Positions 36,070 through 61,757 of a DNA stretch of 64,000 nucleotides are shown here, piece after piece. Each line of letters opens with the position of its first letter. The stretch's first letter is position 1. A program made the translations under genes and the position numbers. Origin of the DNA: a virus; IMG/VR virus record IMGVR_UViG_3300047166_000016, positions 1 to 64,000 of that record. One strand, written 5' to 3'. The notes under the pieces were generated by a model. It saw only the letters and a program-made list of their open reading frames with translations, ran no database searches and was not told the DNA's origin.

Positions 36070-36099
36070 TAAATAACAGGCAGATTCGCGCTGTGTCAA
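36070..36099 (-). promoter_or_regulatory. candidate late-operon promoter
   Basis: Minus strand has TTGACA at 36094-36099 and a TATTTA at 36070-36075 with an 18-base spacer. The -35 overlaps the stop of the RHH gene. It lies upstream of the DUF6456-like gene and the whole terminase-to-fibre operon. Confidence 0.55.
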
Positions 36100-36311
36100 C
36101 GGCCAGAATCCAGCTGCGCCCGCGCATCGACGATCCGATCCGCGATGGCAGTTTCGGCTGCGTTAGGCTCCGGCATATCCCATGCCTTTCGCAAGGCGGC
36201 GACGATGGCCTGGGTGCGTGGCATACCGGCGGCGTCGATGGCATCGACCAGCTCGCGCGGGACGCGGGCACCGATGAAGATCGTGCGCGATGTTTTATGG
36301 GCGTTGCTCAT
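36096..36311 (-). CDS. ribbon-helix-helix repressor-like protein
   Basis: 71 residues from ATG 36311. HKTSRTIFIGARVPRELVDAIDAAGMPRTQAIVAALRKAWD shows the RHH layout: a strand (RTIFIGARVP), then two helices with a turn at AAGMPRTQAI. Such proteins are small dimers that bind palindromic operators. It faces three GCGTTAAACG palindromes and an inverted repeat over its own start codon, so auto-repression and control of the plus-strand early operon are likely. Confidence 0.7.
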   Translation of the reverse strand: MSNAHKTSRTIFIGARVPRELVDAIDAAGMPRTQAIVAALRKAWDMPEPNAAETAIADRIVDARAQLDSGR

Positions 36312-36347
36312 GCGGAACCCTACCACGGCACCCATACGGTTCCGCAT
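36310..36347. promoter_or_regulatory. 10-base inverted repeat over the RHH start codon
   Basis: ATGCGGAACC at 36310-36319 and GGTTCCGCAT at 36338-36347 are perfect inverses with an 18-base spacer. The left arm covers the RHH start codon. It can act as an operator or as an mRNA hairpin closing the start. Confidence 0.65.
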
Positions 36348-36402
36348 AGCGTTAAACGCTACTCTGCCATGCGTTAAACGCTCTGGCGTGGCGTTAAACG
36401 CC
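36348..36402. promoter_or_regulatory. three GCGTTAAACG palindromic operators
   Basis: GCGTTAAACG cores lie at 36349, 36371 and 36391 (spacings 22 and 20, about two helical turns). The first and third are embedded in 13-base palindromes (AGCGTTAAACGCT, GGCGTTAAACGCC); the middle one extends to GCGTTAAACGCT. They sit between the RHH gene and the plus-strand operon starting at 36,544, and are the obvious binding sites of the RHH protein. An iteron role is less likely. Confidence 0.75.
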
Positions 36403-38514: not shown

Positions 38515-38873
38515 CATATCGGTTCGTTATCTCGTCCGATCCGAAAACCGGCGCGGACGTGGCCCGATGCGGTGAGCATACCGCCCGCAGTTCGCGCGCC
38601 TCGGCCGCGCACGATCTGGCCCGCGCCATTATCGGCACCGGACTCCCGGATGCACCAATCGAGGCGCGCGGCGAGGACGGTCGGTTGCGATACACCGTCC
38701 GGTCGCTGGCCGCGTTCGCGCGGTGGACCATAACCGAAACGCCGAAGCTGCGCCGCACGCGCTGGACGGCTTTCGACGTGTCCCGCTTCCGTCAGGCGCC
38801 GGATGCGGAGGAACCGCCTCCCGGCGAACACCTATCGGCGGAAACGGGCGATTGCGCCGAGAGCGCCCCGTGA
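38511..38873 (+). CDS. early protein of unknown function
   Basis: 120 residues from GTG 38511. TYRFVISSDPKTGADVARCGEHTARSSRASAAHDLARAIIG suggests a small beta-alpha domain; FARWTITETPKLRRTRWTAF follows. The C-terminus is acidic and proline-rich. GTGA coupling on both sides. Confidence 0.5.
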   Translation: MTYRFVISSDPKTGADVARCGEHTARSSRASAAHDLARAIIGTGLPDAPIEARGEDGRLRYTVRSLAAFARWTITETPKLRRTRWTAFDVSRFRQAPDAEEPPPGEHLSAETGDCAESAP

Positions 38874-39049
38874 CCGCCGCACCCAGCTCGCGTCCGATCG
38901 CCGACGACCTTACGCCGCTGATCGCATACCGCTGGGACCTGGCCGAACTGCGCCGGATGCAACGAACACCGGAGCAGTCGCGGCGGCTGCGCCTGCGGTG
39001 CTGGGTGCGGCGGTGTTTGTGGTGGAGCGCCGCGGTGGCGCGGCGATAG
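38870..39049 (+). CDS. small basic protein
   Basis: 59 residues from GTG 38870 (GTGA). Arginine-rich C-terminal half (RLRLRCWVRRCLWWSAAVARR). It may be membrane-seeking or nucleic-acid binding; support is the overlap. Confidence 0.4.
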   Translation: MTAAPSSRPIADDLTPLIAYRWDLAELRRMQRTPEQSRRLRLRCWVRRCLWWSAAVARR

Positions 39050-39063
39050 GGATGGAGAGATCG

Positions 39064-40278
39064 ATGGCCGAAAAAACGGAGCGCAACGCCGAACTGCGGC
39101 GCATGGCCGAGGCGAATATGTCCCGCGCCGATCTATGCCGCCATTTCGGGCTGACCCCGAAGCGCGTCTCCAAAATTCTGACACGCGACGGCAGGGGCGA
39201 GAAACTGGAGGCGGAACGCGCGGCCAGGAATGCGGCGATCGTCGCGGCGGCCAGGGCGGGCAACGAGACGATGAGCGCCATCGGCGAGCGGTTCGGGGTA
39301 TCCGGCACGCGCGTCGCGGAAATACTTGCCGCCGCCGGCGTGCCTCCCCCGCGGGGTAAAAAACGCTACTCGCCGCTTTACAACCGCGACGAGACGCCGT
39401 GGACCGACCAGGAAATCGCCATTTTGAGGCGCGAGTGGGATGCCGGGACAACGACCGCCGCGATCGCGAAATCGATCGGACGAAACAAAAACATGGTGAT
39501 TTCGAAGGTGCATCGCCTCGCATTGCCGAGCCGCCCGTCGCCGATCCGGCGGTCCGAGGGGCTGCCCGAACGCAACGCGGCGATACGGGCGGCATACGCG
39601 ACCGGCGAGACGAAGGCGGCTCTGGCGCGGCGGTTCGCGCTGCACCAGGTGACGGTGTGCAACCTCGTCGGCGGATCGGATCGGCCCGCGCCACCGCCGG
39701 CCGGCTTTTCAACGCTGCCCCCGCTGCCATCGATCGCGGCGATCCCTCGTCCCGCGCCGCTCGTGGCCTCTCTGCCGCCCTCGCCCGTGCCGCCACGGGC
39801 CACGACACCCCCCGCGCCGTTACCCGCTCCACGCCAGCTTGCAACGCCCTACGTGGCACGTCCGCGCCCCATCGCCCCCGCCAGGCCAGCCGCGCCGCCC
39901 ATGACGCCTCCCGCGCCCGCCCGGCATATCGCCGCCCCCGCCGAGGTCGAGGTGATGGACTGGCGTGCGAAGGGCTGGCCCGAGCCGGGTTCGCCGGAGA
40001 CGCTAGGCGGCGTCGTCGCGGCGCAGGGCATCGCGGAGCATCCGTTGGCCGGTCGGGATGCGCGGTGCTGCCAGTGGCCGCTCGGGGAGCCTGGGCGGCC
40101 TGGGTTTCGGTATTGCGACGACCCCCAGACGACGGTGCGCCGGCTCGGTCCGCTCGGATTGCCGGTGTTCGTGGCGTCGCCATACTGCGAGGCGCATAGG
40201 GCCGCGTCCGTGACGCGCTACGTGGCGCCGGGCCGAGCCGTGGCGGGATCGGCAGAAGGGGATCGCGCGGCGGTGTGA
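39064..40278 (+). CDS. GcrA-like transcription regulator fused to extra HTH units
   Basis: 404 residues. Residues about 8-45 and 55-92 are two resolvase-like HTH units (MSRADLCRHFGLTPKRVSKIL; MSAIGERFGVSGTRVAEIL). Residues 112-161 match the GcrA DNA-binding domain (PWTDQEIAILRREWDAGTT...NMVISKVHRLALPSRPSP). Another HTH follows near 170-203. A long Pro/Ala linker leads to residues 334-380, a GcrA C-terminal sigma-binding-like domain (RCCQWPLGEP...FRYCDDP...PYCEAH). Host GcrA works with CcrM-methylated GANTC promoters, so this protein may redirect RNA polymerase. Confidence 0.8.
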   Translation: MAEKTERNAELRRMAEANMSRADLCRHFGLTPKRVSKILTRDGRGEKLEAERAARNAAIVAAARAGNETMSAIGERFGVSGTRVAEILAAAGVPPPRGKKRYSPLYNRDETPWTDQEIAILRREWDAGTTTAAIAKSIGRNKNMVISKVHRLALPSRPSPIRRSEGLPERNAAIRAAYATGETKAALARRFALHQVTVCNLVGGSDRPAPPPAGFSTLPPLPSIAAIPRPAPLVASLPPSPVPPRATTPPAPLPAPRQLATPYVARPRPIAPARPAAPPMTPPAPARHIAAPAEVEVMDWRAKGWPEPGSPETLGGVVAAQGIAEHPLAGRDARCCQWPLGEPGRPGFRYCDDPQTTVRRLGPLGLPVFVASPYCEAHRAASVTRYVAPGRAVAGSAEGDRAAV

Positions 40279-40306
40279 CACGGGCGGGACATGGCGGGGC
40301 GGAGAT

Positions 40307-40328
40307 CGGCACCGGGGGGTGCCGTTTT
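40307..40328 (+). terminator. intrinsic terminator after the GcrA-like gene
   Basis: Plus-strand stem CGGCACC/GGTGCCG with a GGGG loop followed by TTTT. Lies between the convergent plus operon and the minus gene ending at 40,333. Confidence 0.75.
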
Positions 40329-40332
40329 CGCG

Positions 40333-41007
40333 TCAAAACCCGAGATCGCCGGTTAGCGGCTTATCGAGCGGGTAGCCTTGCCTGACGATATCGGCGGCCG
40401 CGCCTTCCTCCATCTGCACCGCCTTCTCGACCGGTTCGCCCTCCCACTTCAACCGGTCCACCACGGAGCCGTGTTTCTCGACCAGCCGCGCCAGCTGCGT
40501 CATGGTCCACACGTCGAGCCGGCGCCCCTCGTGCTGATCGCGGATCGTCGTGGCGACATCGACCGGGAGCTTGTCGTCGATGTGCCCCGCGGCCGCGACG
40601 TTGCCGTTCGGCGAAAAGCCGGTGAATTGCGAGGCGTGGGAGGCACGCAGGACGGCGGCCTGTTCTGCCTCGGTCCTCACCACCACCAGGACGGTCCCAT
40701 CGCCCAGGCGCGTCTCCCACGTCTCGGGCGCGAGGGGTTTGTTCCCGGCCGCCGATGCCTCGCCGTCCATGAACGCGAGCGCCGCGATCATCTTCGGGCC
40801 GATGGCTTGCACCGCGTCGGGATCGCAATCGTCGAGGGCGACGCGATAGGCGTCCCACCCGCGGCGGTATGACGCCAGGACCTCGGGGCTTTGCAGCCGT
40901 TCGAGGCGTCCAACCCCCCATTTCTGTTCCGAGGCCCAGAACGCGGTGTCGATCGGGACGAGAGCCGCCCGGAGACGGTCGTAGCGTTCGGCGGTCAAAG
41001 CGATCAT
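40333..41007 (-). CDS. hypothetical early protein
   Basis: 224 residues, helical and Ala-rich. AERYDRLRAALVPIDTAFWASEQKWGVGRLERLQSPEVLASYRRGW; GPKMIAALAFMDGEASAAG; TVLVVVRTEAEQAAVLRASHA; DVWTMTQLARLVEKHGSVV. It may belong to a phage replication accessory group; ATGA with the zinc-site gene. Confidence 0.55.
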   Translation of the reverse strand: MIALTAERYDRLRAALVPIDTAFWASEQKWGVGRLERLQSPEVLASYRRGWDAYRVALDDCDPDAVQAIGPKMIAALAFMDGEASAAGNKPLAPETWETRLGDGTVLVVVRTEAEQAAVLRASHASQFTGFSPNGNVAAAGHIDDKLPVDVATTIRDQHEGRRLDVWTMTQLARLVEKHGSVVDRLKWEGEPVEKAVQMEEGAAADIVRQGYPLDKPLTGDLGF

Positions 41008-48538: not shown

Positions 48539-48590
48539 TTCGCTATATCGCTTATTCGCTATTGCGCGTCAACCCCCACGGTGTTATATT
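48539..48590. promoter_or_regulatory. back-to-back promoters with TTCGCTAT repeats
   Basis: Minus strand TTGACG (48567-48572) with 17 bases to GATATA (48544-48549); plus strand TTGCGC (48562-48567), 17 bases, TATATT (48585-48590). TTCGCTAT occurs at 48539 and 48555, covering the minus -10. These repeats are likely operators for the HTH protein. Confidence 0.6.
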
Positions 48591-48613
48591 TTTTCGGAAC
48601 GCAGGAGGACGCC

Positions 48614-49390
48614 ATGCCAAACCGCCATAGCGCAGACATTTTCGACATCGCGCCGGAAGATATCCGCGTGATTCCCGGTTTCAATTACCGCGACATTTCG
48701 ACGCCTGCCGTCCAGGCGAAAATTCGCGAGGGCGCGAACACGATGCTTAATCCGGCGGTGCGGTTCATCCGCTCCAAGCCGCTGACCTTGAAAAAGATCG
48801 ACGGCGAGATGTGTCTGATAGACGGGCATTGCCGCCTGGAGATGGTGAAACTGGCGAATAGCGAAGGGGCCGGTATCGTCTCGGTGCCTTACTTGTTGGA
48901 GCCGCGCGGCACCGATGAGATCGACCGTGCCTATACCATGTTTAGCACCGGAACGCCTTTATCCGTGCTGGATAAGGTTCGCGGCGTCAAAGACCTACTT
49001 GGTCGCGGCCAGACCATCGAAGATATCGCGGCACGTCTCGGCGTGTCGGCGACGACGGTCAATTCCTGGCTCGATCTGGCCGAAGCGCCCGCCGAGATCG
49101 TCCAGGCCGTCACGGGCGGCGAAATCAGTGCGACCGAGGCGAACCGGATCGTCAAGGTTAACGGCAGTCACGCCGGCGAAGTCTTGGCCGCCGCGCGCGA
49201 CGTGGCCCGCGCCGATGGCAGGGAGCGCGTCAGGCCGCGCGACGTGGCGAAGGTATCTCAAGGTAGGGCAGAGCCAGTGAGCGTCCATACACTTGCCCTG
49301 GCCGTGGCAGCGGCGTGGCGCGAGGCGAATAACGGGATGACAACCGAATTGCGGTATGCGTTGTGCGCGTTGGCGGATCGGATCGGGTAA
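48614..49390 (+). CDS. ParB-like protein
   Basis: 258 residues, start ATG 48614 with GGAGGA in front. N-terminal ParB-like nuclease/binding domain (LKKIDGEMCLIDGHCRLEMVKLANSEGAGIVSVPYLL), then an HTH (GQTIEDIAARLGVSATTVNSWLDLAEAP) and a helical C-terminus. It may segregate a plasmid-like prophage or act as a ParB-type regulator. No ParA gene is visible nearby. Confidence 0.7.
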   Translation: MPNRHSADIFDIAPEDIRVIPGFNYRDISTPAVQAKIREGANTMLNPAVRFIRSKPLTLKKIDGEMCLIDGHCRLEMVKLANSEGAGIVSVPYLLEPRGTDEIDRAYTMFSTGTPLSVLDKVRGVKDLLGRGQTIEDIAARLGVSATTVNSWLDLAEAPAEIVQAVTGGEISATEANRIVKVNGSHAGEVLAAARDVARADGRERVRPRDVAKVSQGRAEPVSVHTLALAVAAAWREANNGMTTELRYALCALADRIG

Positions 49391-49411: not shown

Positions 49412-50212
49412 TCATGGGCGATAGGTGCGGGCGATCCAGCGCGACAGCGGGAGCGGGATTTTCGCGATCTGCGCAGAGGCGGCTTTGCGGGCCGTGGATT
49501 TGCTTGTGTGCTGGCGCATGAGCGACGGGTTATCCGAACCGAACCAGCCGCCGCCGCATTTCGTGCCCTCCACGCTCGCCGTTTGAAACGAGCGCCCGCT
49601 GCCGTCGAAGCGGAAGCCAGGAACCTTCGCGCCGTCCTCCCCTCGATTGGTCCATCTTGGCGGAGAATTTCCGTTACGGATTGCTTCGTTCACTTCGGGT
49701 GGTATCTTGGTCCATTGCCCGCGCCGCCTGATCGGCATGAGCGCGGGCACGTCGCCCCACAAAGCGAAACTGCCCCACAGCCAGCGTGCCCGTCCGACCC
49801 ACGGCTGCGCGCCCCTTACATTCTCCACCACCATCGGAATATGCCGCCCCGCCGCCTCGCACGCCTCGCGCTGAATGCGGAAGCAGGCATCGAACAGGCG
49901 TGTCAGATCGGCCATCGCCTGGCCCGTCGTATCGGCGCGGATCGCGGCGGCTTTGGCTTTGGCGCGGGACCAGGGCATCGCCATGTAGCTGTATTCTTGG
50001 CAAGGCGGGCTTGCGACGATCAGCGCGGCCTCGCGGAACTGCGAGCCGTGCAACGTCAGCACATCCTGGACCACAAGTTGCGCGGGGTAGCATTGATCGC
50101 CGTAAACGTGCCGCTCTATGTCGAACCCTATCACGACGTATCCCTCGGCAAGAAATCCTTCCGTCCAACCGCCAAGCCCAGCATAGAGGTCGATAGCGAG
50201 CGGCTTACGCAT
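49412..50212 (-). CDS. DNA (cytosine-5) methyltransferase
   Basis: 266 residues from ATG 50212. Motif I DLYAGLGGWTEGFLAEGYVVIG, motif IV ASPPCQEYS with catalytic Cys, motif VI VVENVRG. The target domain is short; the C-terminus has SGRSFQTAS. Such solitary phage Dcm-type enzymes protect phage DNA from restriction. Sits directly downstream of a zinc protein gene and the helicase-methyltransferase. Confidence 0.85.
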   Translation of the reverse strand: MRKPLAIDLYAGLGGWTEGFLAEGYVVIGFDIERHVYGDQCYPAQLVVQDVLTLHGSQFREAALIVASPPCQEYSYMAMPWSRAKAKAAAIRADTTGQAMADLTRLFDACFRIQREACEAAGRHIPMVVENVRGAQPWVGRARWLWGSFALWGDVPALMPIRRRGQWTKIPPEVNEAIRNGNSPPRWTNRGEDGAKVPGFRFDGSGRSFQTASVEGTKCGGGWFGSDNPSLMRQHTSKSTARKAASAQIAKIPLPLSRWIARTYRP

Positions 50213-50405
50213 CCCCCGCCACCCGCTCCACCCGCACCGTCGCGGGCTGATTCGTGGACCACGCCGCGTAGCAGGCGGCGAAATCGTCGCACCACCATCG
50301 GAACACTTCGGTCGATGCGTCGGGCGGGTTGTGCTCCCATCGCACCGTCGCGGGCCGGCCGCATCGGGTGCATGGGCGGTAAGGCAACGGATCAATCGGC
50401 GGCAT
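50205..50405 (-). CDS. small zinc-ribbon protein
   Basis: 66 residues. PCTRCGRPATVRWEHNPP with later WWCDDFAACY suggest a C-x2-C...C-x5-C zinc site. It overlaps both methyltransferase genes by a few bases, so it is translated with them. Confidence 0.5.
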   Translation of the reverse strand: MPPIDPLPYRPCTRCGRPATVRWEHNPPDASTEVFRWWCDDFAACYAAWSTNQPATVRVERVAGDA

Positions 50406-53016
50406 CGTCCAACGCCGCCAGATATCCGAACAACGTCGGCAGCGATGCTTCCGCTTCCAATGCTCGGCAATACCTCACCCCGTCGCGCCAATACGTCGCA
50501 CTCAGTTCCACGCCCTTGCCGATCCGACCGAGTTTCAGTGCGCGCAACGGCACGGTTCCAATTCCCGCGAACGGATCGAACACGACTTCGCCTGGCATGG
50601 AAAATTGGGTGATAAGTCGATCCGCGATATCGAATTGCATCGGACATAAATGCGTTTCCCGACCTGCCGCCGATTGCTGGCTGTTGAGGCTCAGCATCCG
50701 TGTGATATCGGTCCAGACATCGCCATGCACAGAATGCGGCGGCCACAGCATGAACGTTGCCGGAAGGCGCCGTAACTGGTCCATCGTCTCGCATAGCTGC
50801 TTATGCTCGGCATAATCGTAGACGCCTTCGAGAGATAATTTCTCCCACCATTTGTAAAGATCGGCATGGTCCGTGAACGCCAGTTCTTCGGCGGACAACA
50901 GCCTATCGCCGGACGAACGCGCGTAACCGTGGGCATCGAGCTGCCACGCGGAACGCGAGTAGCCGGTTCCCGGCACGGGTGTTTTCCAGTTGTTTTTCTT
51001 ATCCCATGGCGAGGCGTTACCATCGTTATCGATGGCGAGCGGTTTGCTTTTCACGACCGGCTTGTCCGCATAGCCGCTCGATAGATCGCTCGGCGGCTTG
51101 CGGAAGATGAGCACGTATTCCGGCACGCCGCACCCCATGCGCGACCCGTCCTTGCATTGCTCGGTCCACCCCAGGCGATAAGTTTGGTTGTTCTCCCGCA
51201 CAACGTCCGTGGTGACAGTTTTCATACCGAGAAACGCGAAGCCGTGCTTTTGGTAGTGGTAGATTGCTTCGGCATGGAATGGGTGCAGCGTTTGAAACCC
51301 GAGGCCGTTGATACCACCCGGCACGATCCGATCCTTGACGTGGATGCAGGCATTGCGCCCCGGAGATAGCATTCGGAACAGCGATGGCGTCAGAAAATCC
51401 ATTTGCGCCCAAAAATGGTCGTTATCGTCGGTATGCCCGAAATCGTTAAAGGTTGGCGTATACTCGTATTGCGTGGCGAACGGGATCGAAGTTACGATCA
51501 GATCGACGCTATTTTCTTCCGCCGCAGCGCATTCCGGCACGGTATCGTTGTTGACGATGGACCATCCCTGACCCGAAGCCTCGCGCCGCTCCGTTCCCAT
51601 GGACCGGCTCAGAACGCTGGCGAACGCGATTTCCGACAGCCCGAACTCTTTGACGATCTGACGCATCCGCTCGACCATTTCGTTGTGACGCTTCCACTTC
51701 TGTTCGAGGTTGCGCCGCACGTTTTGTTCCGCGTCGGTGTATATGATATCGATCCGCACCTTGCGCGTCTGGCCGAACCGCTGGATACGGTGAACCGCCT
51801 GGATGAACTGGAAAAACTTGAACCCAATGCCGAGGAACACGGCGCGGGCACAATGCCTTTGAAGATTGGTGCCGGCGCCGAGCATCTGAGGCTTGGCCGC
51901 GACTTCCTTGATCTCGCCATCCGAAAACGCGACGATTGCCGCTTCCCGATCCGGGATCGTCTGGCTTCCGTAGATCGCGACCGCGTCAGGAATGGCGCCG
52001 CAAATGGCGTGACGTTCCGCTTCCAGGTCGTGCCAGATAATGCGATGCTCGTCCGGTTCCTCCGCGCGGATTTCCTTTAGTTTCGCTATGCGTGTATCGA
52101 GGCTATCGCGCTTTTCGCGGGCGCTTTCCGACACGCCGATAGACGGGTTCGGCAGCAGCATACCCTGGCCGTCGCGTTCCTGACCGGCCTTGGAGTAATC
52201 GCTCGGCACGCTATGCCAGCGGACTTCCAGTTCCGGCATGACATACCCGGTATCGTCGAAACCGAGATCGCTCGGTAGCAACATGAAAATTGCCCATGAC
52301 GATACCCATAACCAAAACTCTTTTTCCTTATGAGCGTGCAGCGTCAGCTTGTCCGCATTGGAACTGTCTCGCTTGAAGAAGCGGGTTTTCCCGGCCCCGA
52401 CATCCATAACTCCAAGGAATGCGGCGTATGACAGGATCTCGATGTATTCGTTCGGGCTTGGCGTTGCCGTCGCGACAAAGCGGTATTTCGTGCCCTCGAA
52501 CTGGTTCATCAGCGCCCGGAACGTCGCGGTGCCGCCGAAGCCGCGCAACACCGCCGCCTCGTCCAGCCACACGGTATCGAACAACCCCATGTCGATCTTT
52601 TCGCCGCGCACGCTCTCGTAATTCGTCACATAGACGCCCGGACCATCGACCTCGGATGCGGACCTGATGAATTCGAGCGGGATGGCGAGGCTCCCGGCAT
52701 CGCGCCGAAACTCTTGTCGCACACCGAGCGGGGCCACGATCAGTGCGCGCGATGTCGCGGTTCCGCGCACGGCGATATCCGGGTTCCACGCCATACCGGT
52801 CAACACAGCGCACGTTTCCAGGCCGACGCTCGTCTTGTGCAGACCGAAACTCGCGAACGTCGCGGCGCGTCCTTTTTTCAGGTTCCATTGCACAAGCGCG
52901 GCGGCATGCGGCCGAAGCCACGGGTGCAAGTCCGGGACAGCTTCTGTTATGCCGAGGTTCTTGGAAAACTGGACTTTGGCCGCGAGAAACTTGTTGTAGG
53001 CGTCAAGATCGATCAT
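50392..53016 (-). CDS. SF2 helicase fused to N6/N4 DNA methyltransferase
   Basis: 874 residues. Helicase part: FASFGLHKT at 54-62 in place of the usual GxGKT, LDEAAVL (151-157), ATATPSPN (182-189), and QAVHRIQRFGQTRKVRI (motif VI). Methyltransferase part: DLIVTSIPFATQYEY (motif IV variant of D/S-PP-Y), later DPFAGIGTVPLRALKLGR (motif I, 814-831), the beta-class order. It may methylate DNA while translocating, or be an anti-restriction or defence enzyme. Confidence 0.8.
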   Translation of the reverse strand: MIDLDAYNKFLAAKVQFSKNLGITEAVPDLHPWLRPHAAALVQWNLKKGRAATFASFGLHKTSVGLETCAVLTGMAWNPDIAVRGTATSRALIVAPLGVRQEFRRDAGSLAIPLEFIRSASEVDGPGVYVTNYESVRGEKIDMGLFDTVWLDEAAVLRGFGGTATFRALMNQFEGTKYRFVATATPSPNEYIEILSYAAFLGVMDVGAGKTRFFKRDSSNADKLTLHAHKEKEFWLWVSSWAIFMLLPSDLGFDDTGYVMPELEVRWHSVPSDYSKAGQERDGQGMLLPNPSIGVSESAREKRDSLDTRIAKLKEIRAEEPDEHRIIWHDLEAERHAICGAIPDAVAIYGSQTIPDREAAIVAFSDGEIKEVAAKPQMLGAGTNLQRHCARAVFLGIGFKFFQFIQAVHRIQRFGQTRKVRIDIIYTDAEQNVRRNLEQKWKRHNEMVERMRQIVKEFGLSEIAFASVLSRSMGTERREASGQGWSIVNNDTVPECAAAEENSVDLIVTSIPFATQYEYTPTFNDFGHTDDNDHFWAQMDFLTPSLFRMLSPGRNACIHVKDRIVPGGINGLGFQTLHPFHAEAIYHYQKHGFAFLGMKTVTTDVVRENNQTYRLGWTEQCKDGSRMGCGVPEYVLIFRKPPSDLSSGYADKPVVKSKPLAIDNDGNASPWDKKNNWKTPVPGTGYSRSAWQLDAHGYARSSGDRLLSAEELAFTDHADLYKWWEKLSLEGVYDYAEHKQLCETMDQLRRLPATFMLWPPHSVHGDVWTDITRMLSLNSQQSAAGRETHLCPMQFDIADRLITQFSMPGEVVFDPFAGIGTVPLRALKLGRIGKGVELSATYWRDGVRYCRALEAEASLPTLFGYLAALDDAAD

Positions 53017-61129: not shown

Positions 61130-61293
61130 CGTCGGCCGCCACCGCTGAAATGTCCCGCCTCGCCGCCGCGTTCGACGCCGCCGACCGGGCAAGCGACGTT
61201 CGGCTTATGGTCGAGGATCATGCGGCATCGTCCTCGGTCGCCGTGCCAGCCGCAACAGCGCCGACGATCGGCAGTTTGGTCGATACACCTTGA
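61126..61293 (+). CDS. small helical protein overlapping the transposase-like gene
   Basis: 55 residues from ATG 61126 (ATGA). TSAATAEMSRLAAAFDAADRASDVRLMVEDHAASSSVAVPAAT. The last 25 codons are antisense to the C-terminal end of the IS1595-like gene, so the C-terminus is probably a fusion created when that module inserted. Confidence 0.45.
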   Translation: MTSAATAEMSRLAAAFDAADRASDVRLMVEDHAASSSVAVPAATAPTIGSLVDTP

Positions 61294-61757
61294 CCTCCCG
61301 GCGGATCGTCAGAGCGACGGTTGGCCTTGCGCGGCTTCCCGCCGACATAGGTTTCGTCCATTTCGACCAGACCAGTCAGCAGCGCACCGTTGTCCGTCAT
61401 GGCCTTCCGAACGCGGTGCATCATGGACCAAACGGTCGGCTGGCGGATTTCGATATCTCGCGCGGCCTGCATGGAGGACAACCCCTTCTTGGCGCTGAGC
61501 ATCAGGGAGACCAGCAGAAACCAGCGTTGCAGGTCGATATGGGTTTTGTGAAAGATCGTGCCGACGGTGACGGAAAACGATTTCTTGCAGTCCTGGCATT
61601 GCCAGCGATCGTCTCGGGTGACTTCCCGATGGCGCGAGACTTTGCTGGACGCGCAATAAACGCACGTGGGGCTTTCGCCCCATCGCACGCTTTCAAGATG
61701 CTGGATGCACGCTTCGCGCGTGGGCCAGCGGCGGTATACTTCGACGATGCCGGTCAT
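61218..61757 (-). mobile_element. IS1595-family transposase-like gene, C-terminally short
   Basis: 179 residues. Zinc-ribbon N-terminus (CVYCASSKVSRHREVTRDDRWQCQDCKKSFSVTVGTIFHKTHIDLQRWFL), then LSSMQAARDIEIRQPTVWSMMHRVRKAM and the start of the ISXO2 catalytic domain GLVEMDETYVGGKPRKAN. It stops at AGTATEDDAA, well before the remaining DDE residues, so it is probably inactive or reused. No terminal inverted repeats were seen. Confidence 0.65.

Follow-up and report, generated by a model that had tools for sequence, protein, structure and literature searches.

GcrA is one of the few activators that act through domain 2 of the primary sigma factor, and it is normally methylation-dependent. The Caulobacter crescentus protein (PF07750; 5yix, 7ye1) is 173 aa long and consists of a single HTH, a sigma-interacting domain (SID) and, between them, a linker of about 60 residues. 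GcrA binds sigma domain 2, brings RNA polymerase to methylated promoters and helps to open them (PMC7403470), and its stimulation of open complex formation has been reviewed (PMC7403470). Phage phiCbK also encodes a GcrA (PMC3556154), and two pattern scans of IMG/VR returned more than 100 contigs with a phage GcrA. The presence of the protein in a phage, which the initial annotation of the locus described here took as part of what was surprising, was therefore already known and is common in IMG/VR.

The window, that is, the whole stretch of 64,000 nucleotides analysed, represents most of a 67,660-base IMG/VR virus record (IMGVR_UViG_3300047166_000016). It contains genes for tail sheath, baseplate, portal, capsid protein and terminase, which identify the virus as a contractile-tail phage. 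A gene on its + strand, located 3' of small + strand genes and convergent with - strand replication genes, encodes a 404-aa protein in the order HTH, HTH, GcrA-type HTH, HTH, Pro/Ala-rich linker and GcrA SID. Its features, with the evidence for each, are:

39054..39057, + strand: GGAG ribosome-binding site, 6 nt 5' of the ATG (sequence)
39064..40278, + strand: whole gene of the multi-HTH GcrA-like protein, 404 aa (ORF, Pfam)
39076..39189, + strand: HTH1 (residues 5-42), an HTH_23-type unit and the first of three similar repeats (Pfam, repeat alignment, AlphaFold2)
39214..39336, + strand: HTH2, residues 51-91, second repeat (Pfam, repeat alignment, AlphaFold2)
39397..39543, + strand: GcrA-type DNA-binding HTH, residues 112-160 (Pfam, host-GcrA profile)
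39562..39675, + strand: HTH3, residues 167-204, third repeat, C-terminal to the GcrA HTH (PHROGs, repeat alignment, AlphaFold2)
39679..40053, + strand: Pro/Ala-rich linker, residues 206-330, about 125 residues (composition, spacing)
40054..40215, + strand: SID, residues 331-384, with C336-W-P-G-P-F-C351 ... Y-C375-x2-H378 (profile, conservation, fold)
40120..40176, + strand: SID stretch of about residues 353-371, longer than in ordinary GcrA, predicted beta hairpin (profile, predicted fold)

The gene had been placed at exactly these ORF coordinates; a second in-frame ATG is found 12 nt upstream of the start. It is hardly conceivable that 39064-40278 is no real gene, or that the opposite-strand frame of 514 codons (38792-40336) is the true one. 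That frame is long, as antisense ORFs commonly are where DNA is GC-rich. The + frame has GcrA matches at both ends, a homology that already refutes the artefact. It is also preceded by a ribosome-binding site and is the frame picked by a codon-usage model, the training set of which included this gene. No close relative of the whole 404-aa protein was retrieved from INPHARED phages, IMG/VR or GTDB genomes, so it could be a lineage-specific oddity.

Residues 113-177 of the protein match Pfam GcrA (PF07750) with 41.6 bits (cut-off 26.9). The profile of the host GcrA DNA-binding domain scored 37.1 bits at residues 113-160, about as it does in other phage GcrAs; the host profiles were drawn from a census of GcrA in 385 alphaproteobacterial genomes, the yield of which was mostly ordinary host GcrAs and had no bearing on the extra HTHs. 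This HTH ends in the motif HRLxLPxRPSPI, common to a phage GcrA subfamily, and the pattern K(V/A)HRLxLPxRPSPI was detected in 23 stretches. HTH_23 (Pfam) has two significant stretches in the protein and phrog_836 (PHROGs) has three. AlphaFold2, run on residues 1-211 as a single sequence with no alignment, predicted four three-helix units (helices 2-16/21-28/32-44, 50-64/70-77/81-91, 115-126/131-138/142-151 and 167-179/184-190/195-202), with one continuous helix from 32 to 64. A mean pLDDT of 77.5 against a pTM of 0.32 means that the HTH units are fairly well predicted and their mutual placement is not.

HTH1, HTH2 and HTH3 begin alike, with RNAxx(I/L/R), and their alignments beat shuffles in every pair (p <= 0.0005). 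The GcrA HTH shows weak similarity to HTH1 (p 0.03) and HTH3 (p 0.0075), and its similarity to HTH2 does not exceed that of shuffles (p 0.15). These alignments indicate three copies of one module around a GcrA unit. The initial annotation had reported three extra HTHs flanking the GcrA parts, in agreement with the four modelled units, three of them mutually similar, two N-terminal and one C-terminal of the GcrA HTH. With four HTH units, the protein departs from the single-HTH architecture of Caulobacter GcrA. A donor of the extra module was sought among the other open frames of the window, none of which carries it.

Tandem-HTH DNA binders, such as the bipartite domain of Tc3 transposase, Cbp1, Pax and DUX4, are likewise arrays of three-helix units, but their fold and profile matches to the 404-aa protein are weak (E > 0.02). 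In Foldseek searches with the array model, the Tc3 transposase bipartite DNA-binding domain ranked first with a weak best E of 0.057, and the DUX4 and Pax tandem domains ranked lower, also weakly. No sigma-binding tail is known from any of these four. TAL effectors, retrieved in a PDB sequence search, were rejected, as the score amounts to at most about 4 bits per repeat, summed over near-identical repeats.

The long Pro-rich linker proposed between the GcrA DNA-binding and C-terminal parts was recovered at residues 206-330, with 28% Pro and 20% Ala. The spacing from the GcrA-type HTH to the SID, including HTH3, is 174 residues, the longest seen (18-115 in the others). This linker is probably flexible.

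A host SID profile gathered here scored 20.8 bits at residues 334-353, the best of the shuffles listed reaching 5.0, and a second, weak piece of the profile matches 371-379. All the invariant or nearly invariant columns of 71 aligned viral SIDs are kept. The viral SID alignment led by the 404-aa protein matched 5yix (E 5e-19) and 7ye1 (E 2e-18). The predicted SID fold (pLDDT 87.5) has as its top PDB match chain B of 5yix, the SID of GcrA in complex with sigma70 domain 2, with a TM of 0.72 on the target, a probability of 1.00 and an E of 0.025 for this small domain. Residues C336, C351, C375 and H378 look like a metal site. The predicted hairpin adds about a dozen residues and could alter sigma binding. 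Sequence, conserved residues and predicted fold all identify the C-terminus as a GcrA SID. Failure of this domain to match the GcrA sigma-binding domain had been named as grounds for abandoning the idea; the profile matches to 5yix and 7ye1 and the fold match to 5yix give the opposite outcome. The proposal of the initial annotation, that the protein may compete with host GcrA for sigma-70 RNA polymerase, or read methylated sites and turn cell-cycle transcription towards phage promoters, is supported in part: the domain itself is borne out in these three respects, and contact with the host sigma70 RNA polymerase can soundly be inferred from it.

The 404-aa protein thus shares with Caulobacter GcrA the GcrA-type HTH, the linker, the SID fold and the same C-W-P-G-P-F-C ... 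Y-C-H residues. It differs in its length, its four HTHs, its linker of about 125 residues and its extra predicted SID hairpin. Phage phiCbK gp222 and other one-HTH phage GcrAs, such as those of the viral loci L132, L137, L139 and L169 (open frames of about 160-205 aa), are likewise phage-borne and have similar SIDs, but are ordinary single-HTH GcrAs; L132, L137 and L139 also carry HRLxLPxRPSPI after the HTH. Brevundimonas phage Bajun encodes a protein annotated as a cell cycle regulator (UTC29682.1) with two GcrA-type HTHs and a SID, and two HTHs also precede the SID in L241, L224, L202 and L271. Both HTHs of Bajun are of GcrA type, whereas three of the four found here are HTH_23-type repeats, one of them C-terminal of the GcrA HTH, unlike in the Bajun group.

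The SID pattern was found in at least 119 stretches of IMG/VR. In a set of 130 viral SID frames other than that of the 404-aa protein, one GcrA-type HTH was detected in 99, two in nine, none in 22 and more in 0; these counts are approximate, as the frames extend from one stop codon to the next and include fragments, and HTHs of non-GcrA type would escape the profile used. At three viral loci (L242, L223 and L198) the protein has a GcrA SID, but no GcrA-type HTH was detected in it: in L242 the SID lies behind a different N-terminus, and the other two apparently also join it to a different N-terminal part. This suggests that the sigma-binding tail has been swapped among DNA-binding modules. The 404-aa protein is an extreme member of this modular phage GcrA family and the most elaborate phage GcrA within our sample. 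Streptococcus phage MissC and Phaeobacter phage MD18 encode proteins that match the GcrA HTH and have no SID motif. The MissC protein (L128, 630-1142), annotated as GcrA family, has GcrA-like or Myb-like HTHs alone, and the family name overstates its similarity.

The D5 protein of phage T5 (phrog_323) is, like the 404-aa protein, a phage transcription regulator with HTH-like units. The best phrog_323 stretch is the GcrA HTH region, residues 111-190, but the SID motif is absent from the D5 sequence. Homology beyond this weak HTH link was rejected, since the pairwise E of 0.02 is marginal and the match does not extend along the protein.

GANTC sites are scarce in the window, with 56 observed against 167 expected (ratio 0.33), and GANTC is the most depleted of the 16 five-base palindromes tested. 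The ratio is 0.50 to 0.86 at loci from phages whose capsid protein is related to that of the window, 0.95 in Shewanella phage QDWS and 0.63 in the pooled SID-bearing viral loci. This depletion fits an alphaproteobacterial CcrM host, although it is no proof of one. A GANTC promoter signature was rejected, as 11 of the 56 sites touch intergenic DNA, which makes up 18% of the window; close GANTC pairs in the window are not above chance (p 0.49), and no GANTC occurs between 38642 and 41614. Given the depletion, the lack of intergenic enrichment and this empty interval, methyl-GANTC-dependent phage promoters receive no support.

We give a probability of roughly 0.6 to the view that the 404-aa protein is a GcrA-like transcription activator, acting as a cofactor of sigma70 and bringing host RNA polymerase to the sites that its HTH array reads. 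This reading is based on the SID (profile against shuffles, conserved columns, PDB GcrA SIDs and predicted fold), on the four HTH units with their three mutual repeats, and on the constancy of the SID in other phages in which the DNA-binding part varies, as in the nine two-HTH frames, with that of Bajun among them, in L242 and apparently in L223 and L198. It also draws on contig L134, where a one-HTH phage GcrA adjoins homologues of the primase of the window (45% identity), p44962 and p46615, a position in keeping with an early regulator. The extra SID hairpin, the low pTM and weak fold matches of the array model, and the search for repeated DNA sites, none of which could be linked to the array, weigh against it. 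The SID would bind domain 2 of the host primary sigma factor and travel with RNA polymerase, while the array would recognise a DNA site that is longer than that of host GcrA, or composite. The long linker would let the array stay bound nearby as the polymerase opens the promoter. Host RNA polymerase would be moved in this way to promoters chosen by the array, most likely those of the phage, with a lower dependence on methylated GANTC than for host GcrA. The likely origin of the 404-aa protein is an ordinary phage GcrA in which HTH_23-type modules were inserted and duplicated on either side of the GcrA HTH. More tentatively, the GcrA SID might be a portable tail for sigma70 RNA polymerase with interchangeable HTHs, in which case the four-HTH array found here, as the extreme example, would read a long composite site and free recruitment from methylation. 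Phages that keep the SID with a changed, doubled or quadrupled DNA-binding part offer a natural test of whether the reading of methylation can be separated from the recruitment of polymerase. Their proteins would make up a group of phage-encoded sigma70 activators, a counterpart to the phage repressors of sigma70, which are better known.

Because the SID is conserved, it would be expected to use the site at which host GcrA binds, and repressive phage sigma-binding proteins such as AsiA and gp39 exist (PMC7403470). The protein could then act as a competitor, its SID occupying sigma domain 2 and shutting methylation-dependent host cell-cycle promoters, with the HTHs merely parking it. We regard this as unlikely, because a SID alone would suffice, yet the GcrA HTH is kept and three more were added, and an HTH is retained in most of the viral SID proteins analysed. 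It is quite unlikely that the protein mimics canonical GcrA, reading methylated GANTC and driving the host S-phase programme for phage replication with extra HTHs that raise affinity. Such mimicry has been proposed for phiCbK gp222 (PMC3556154), the GcrA HTH exceeds the Pfam cut-off and the GANTC depletion would suit a CcrM host. However, the recognition-helix region differs at several positions (TRNAVIGKVHRL in host GcrA, NKNMVISKVHRL here), the GcrA equivalog model NF050816 (NCBIfam) scores 45.4 bits against a cut-off of 280, and the GANTC sites of the phage show no intergenic enrichment.

A DNA-binding role in replication, repression or genome organisation, with a SID that no longer binds sigma, appears very unlikely. 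Replication genes are close by, and T5 D5, the namesake of phrog_323, is annotated for replication and late transcription; nevertheless, the D5 similarity is marginal, the D5 sequence has no SID motif, and retention of every residue conserved across the 71 viral proteins is unlike a decaying domain.

No repeated DNA site attributable to the HTH array was found in the window. Three near-palindromic GCGTTAAACGC sites, with 22- and 20-base spacing, are located at 36344-36401, directly upstream of a small - strand gene (36096-36311) with a ribbon-helix-helix-like sequence. The trio is likely an operator array; it was rejected as a target of the HTH array, since the neighbouring gene is its simpler owner.

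In the search of genome contigs for a host, the sole near-complete match was in a 5.7-Mb genome labelled Martelella alba BGMRC 2031 (L095). No GcrA match was found in that genome, which is odd for Alphaproteobacteria, and the label may be wrong. Elsewhere in the window, a frame that resembles a helicase and includes an N6/N4 methyltransferase domain (50392-53016) adjoins a frame with a weak C5 cytosine methyltransferase match (49412-50794). A + strand gene at 48581-49390 has a ParB-type HTH, and a partial IS1595-like transposase, with a zinc ribbon and the start of a DDE domain, is encoded at 61218-61757.
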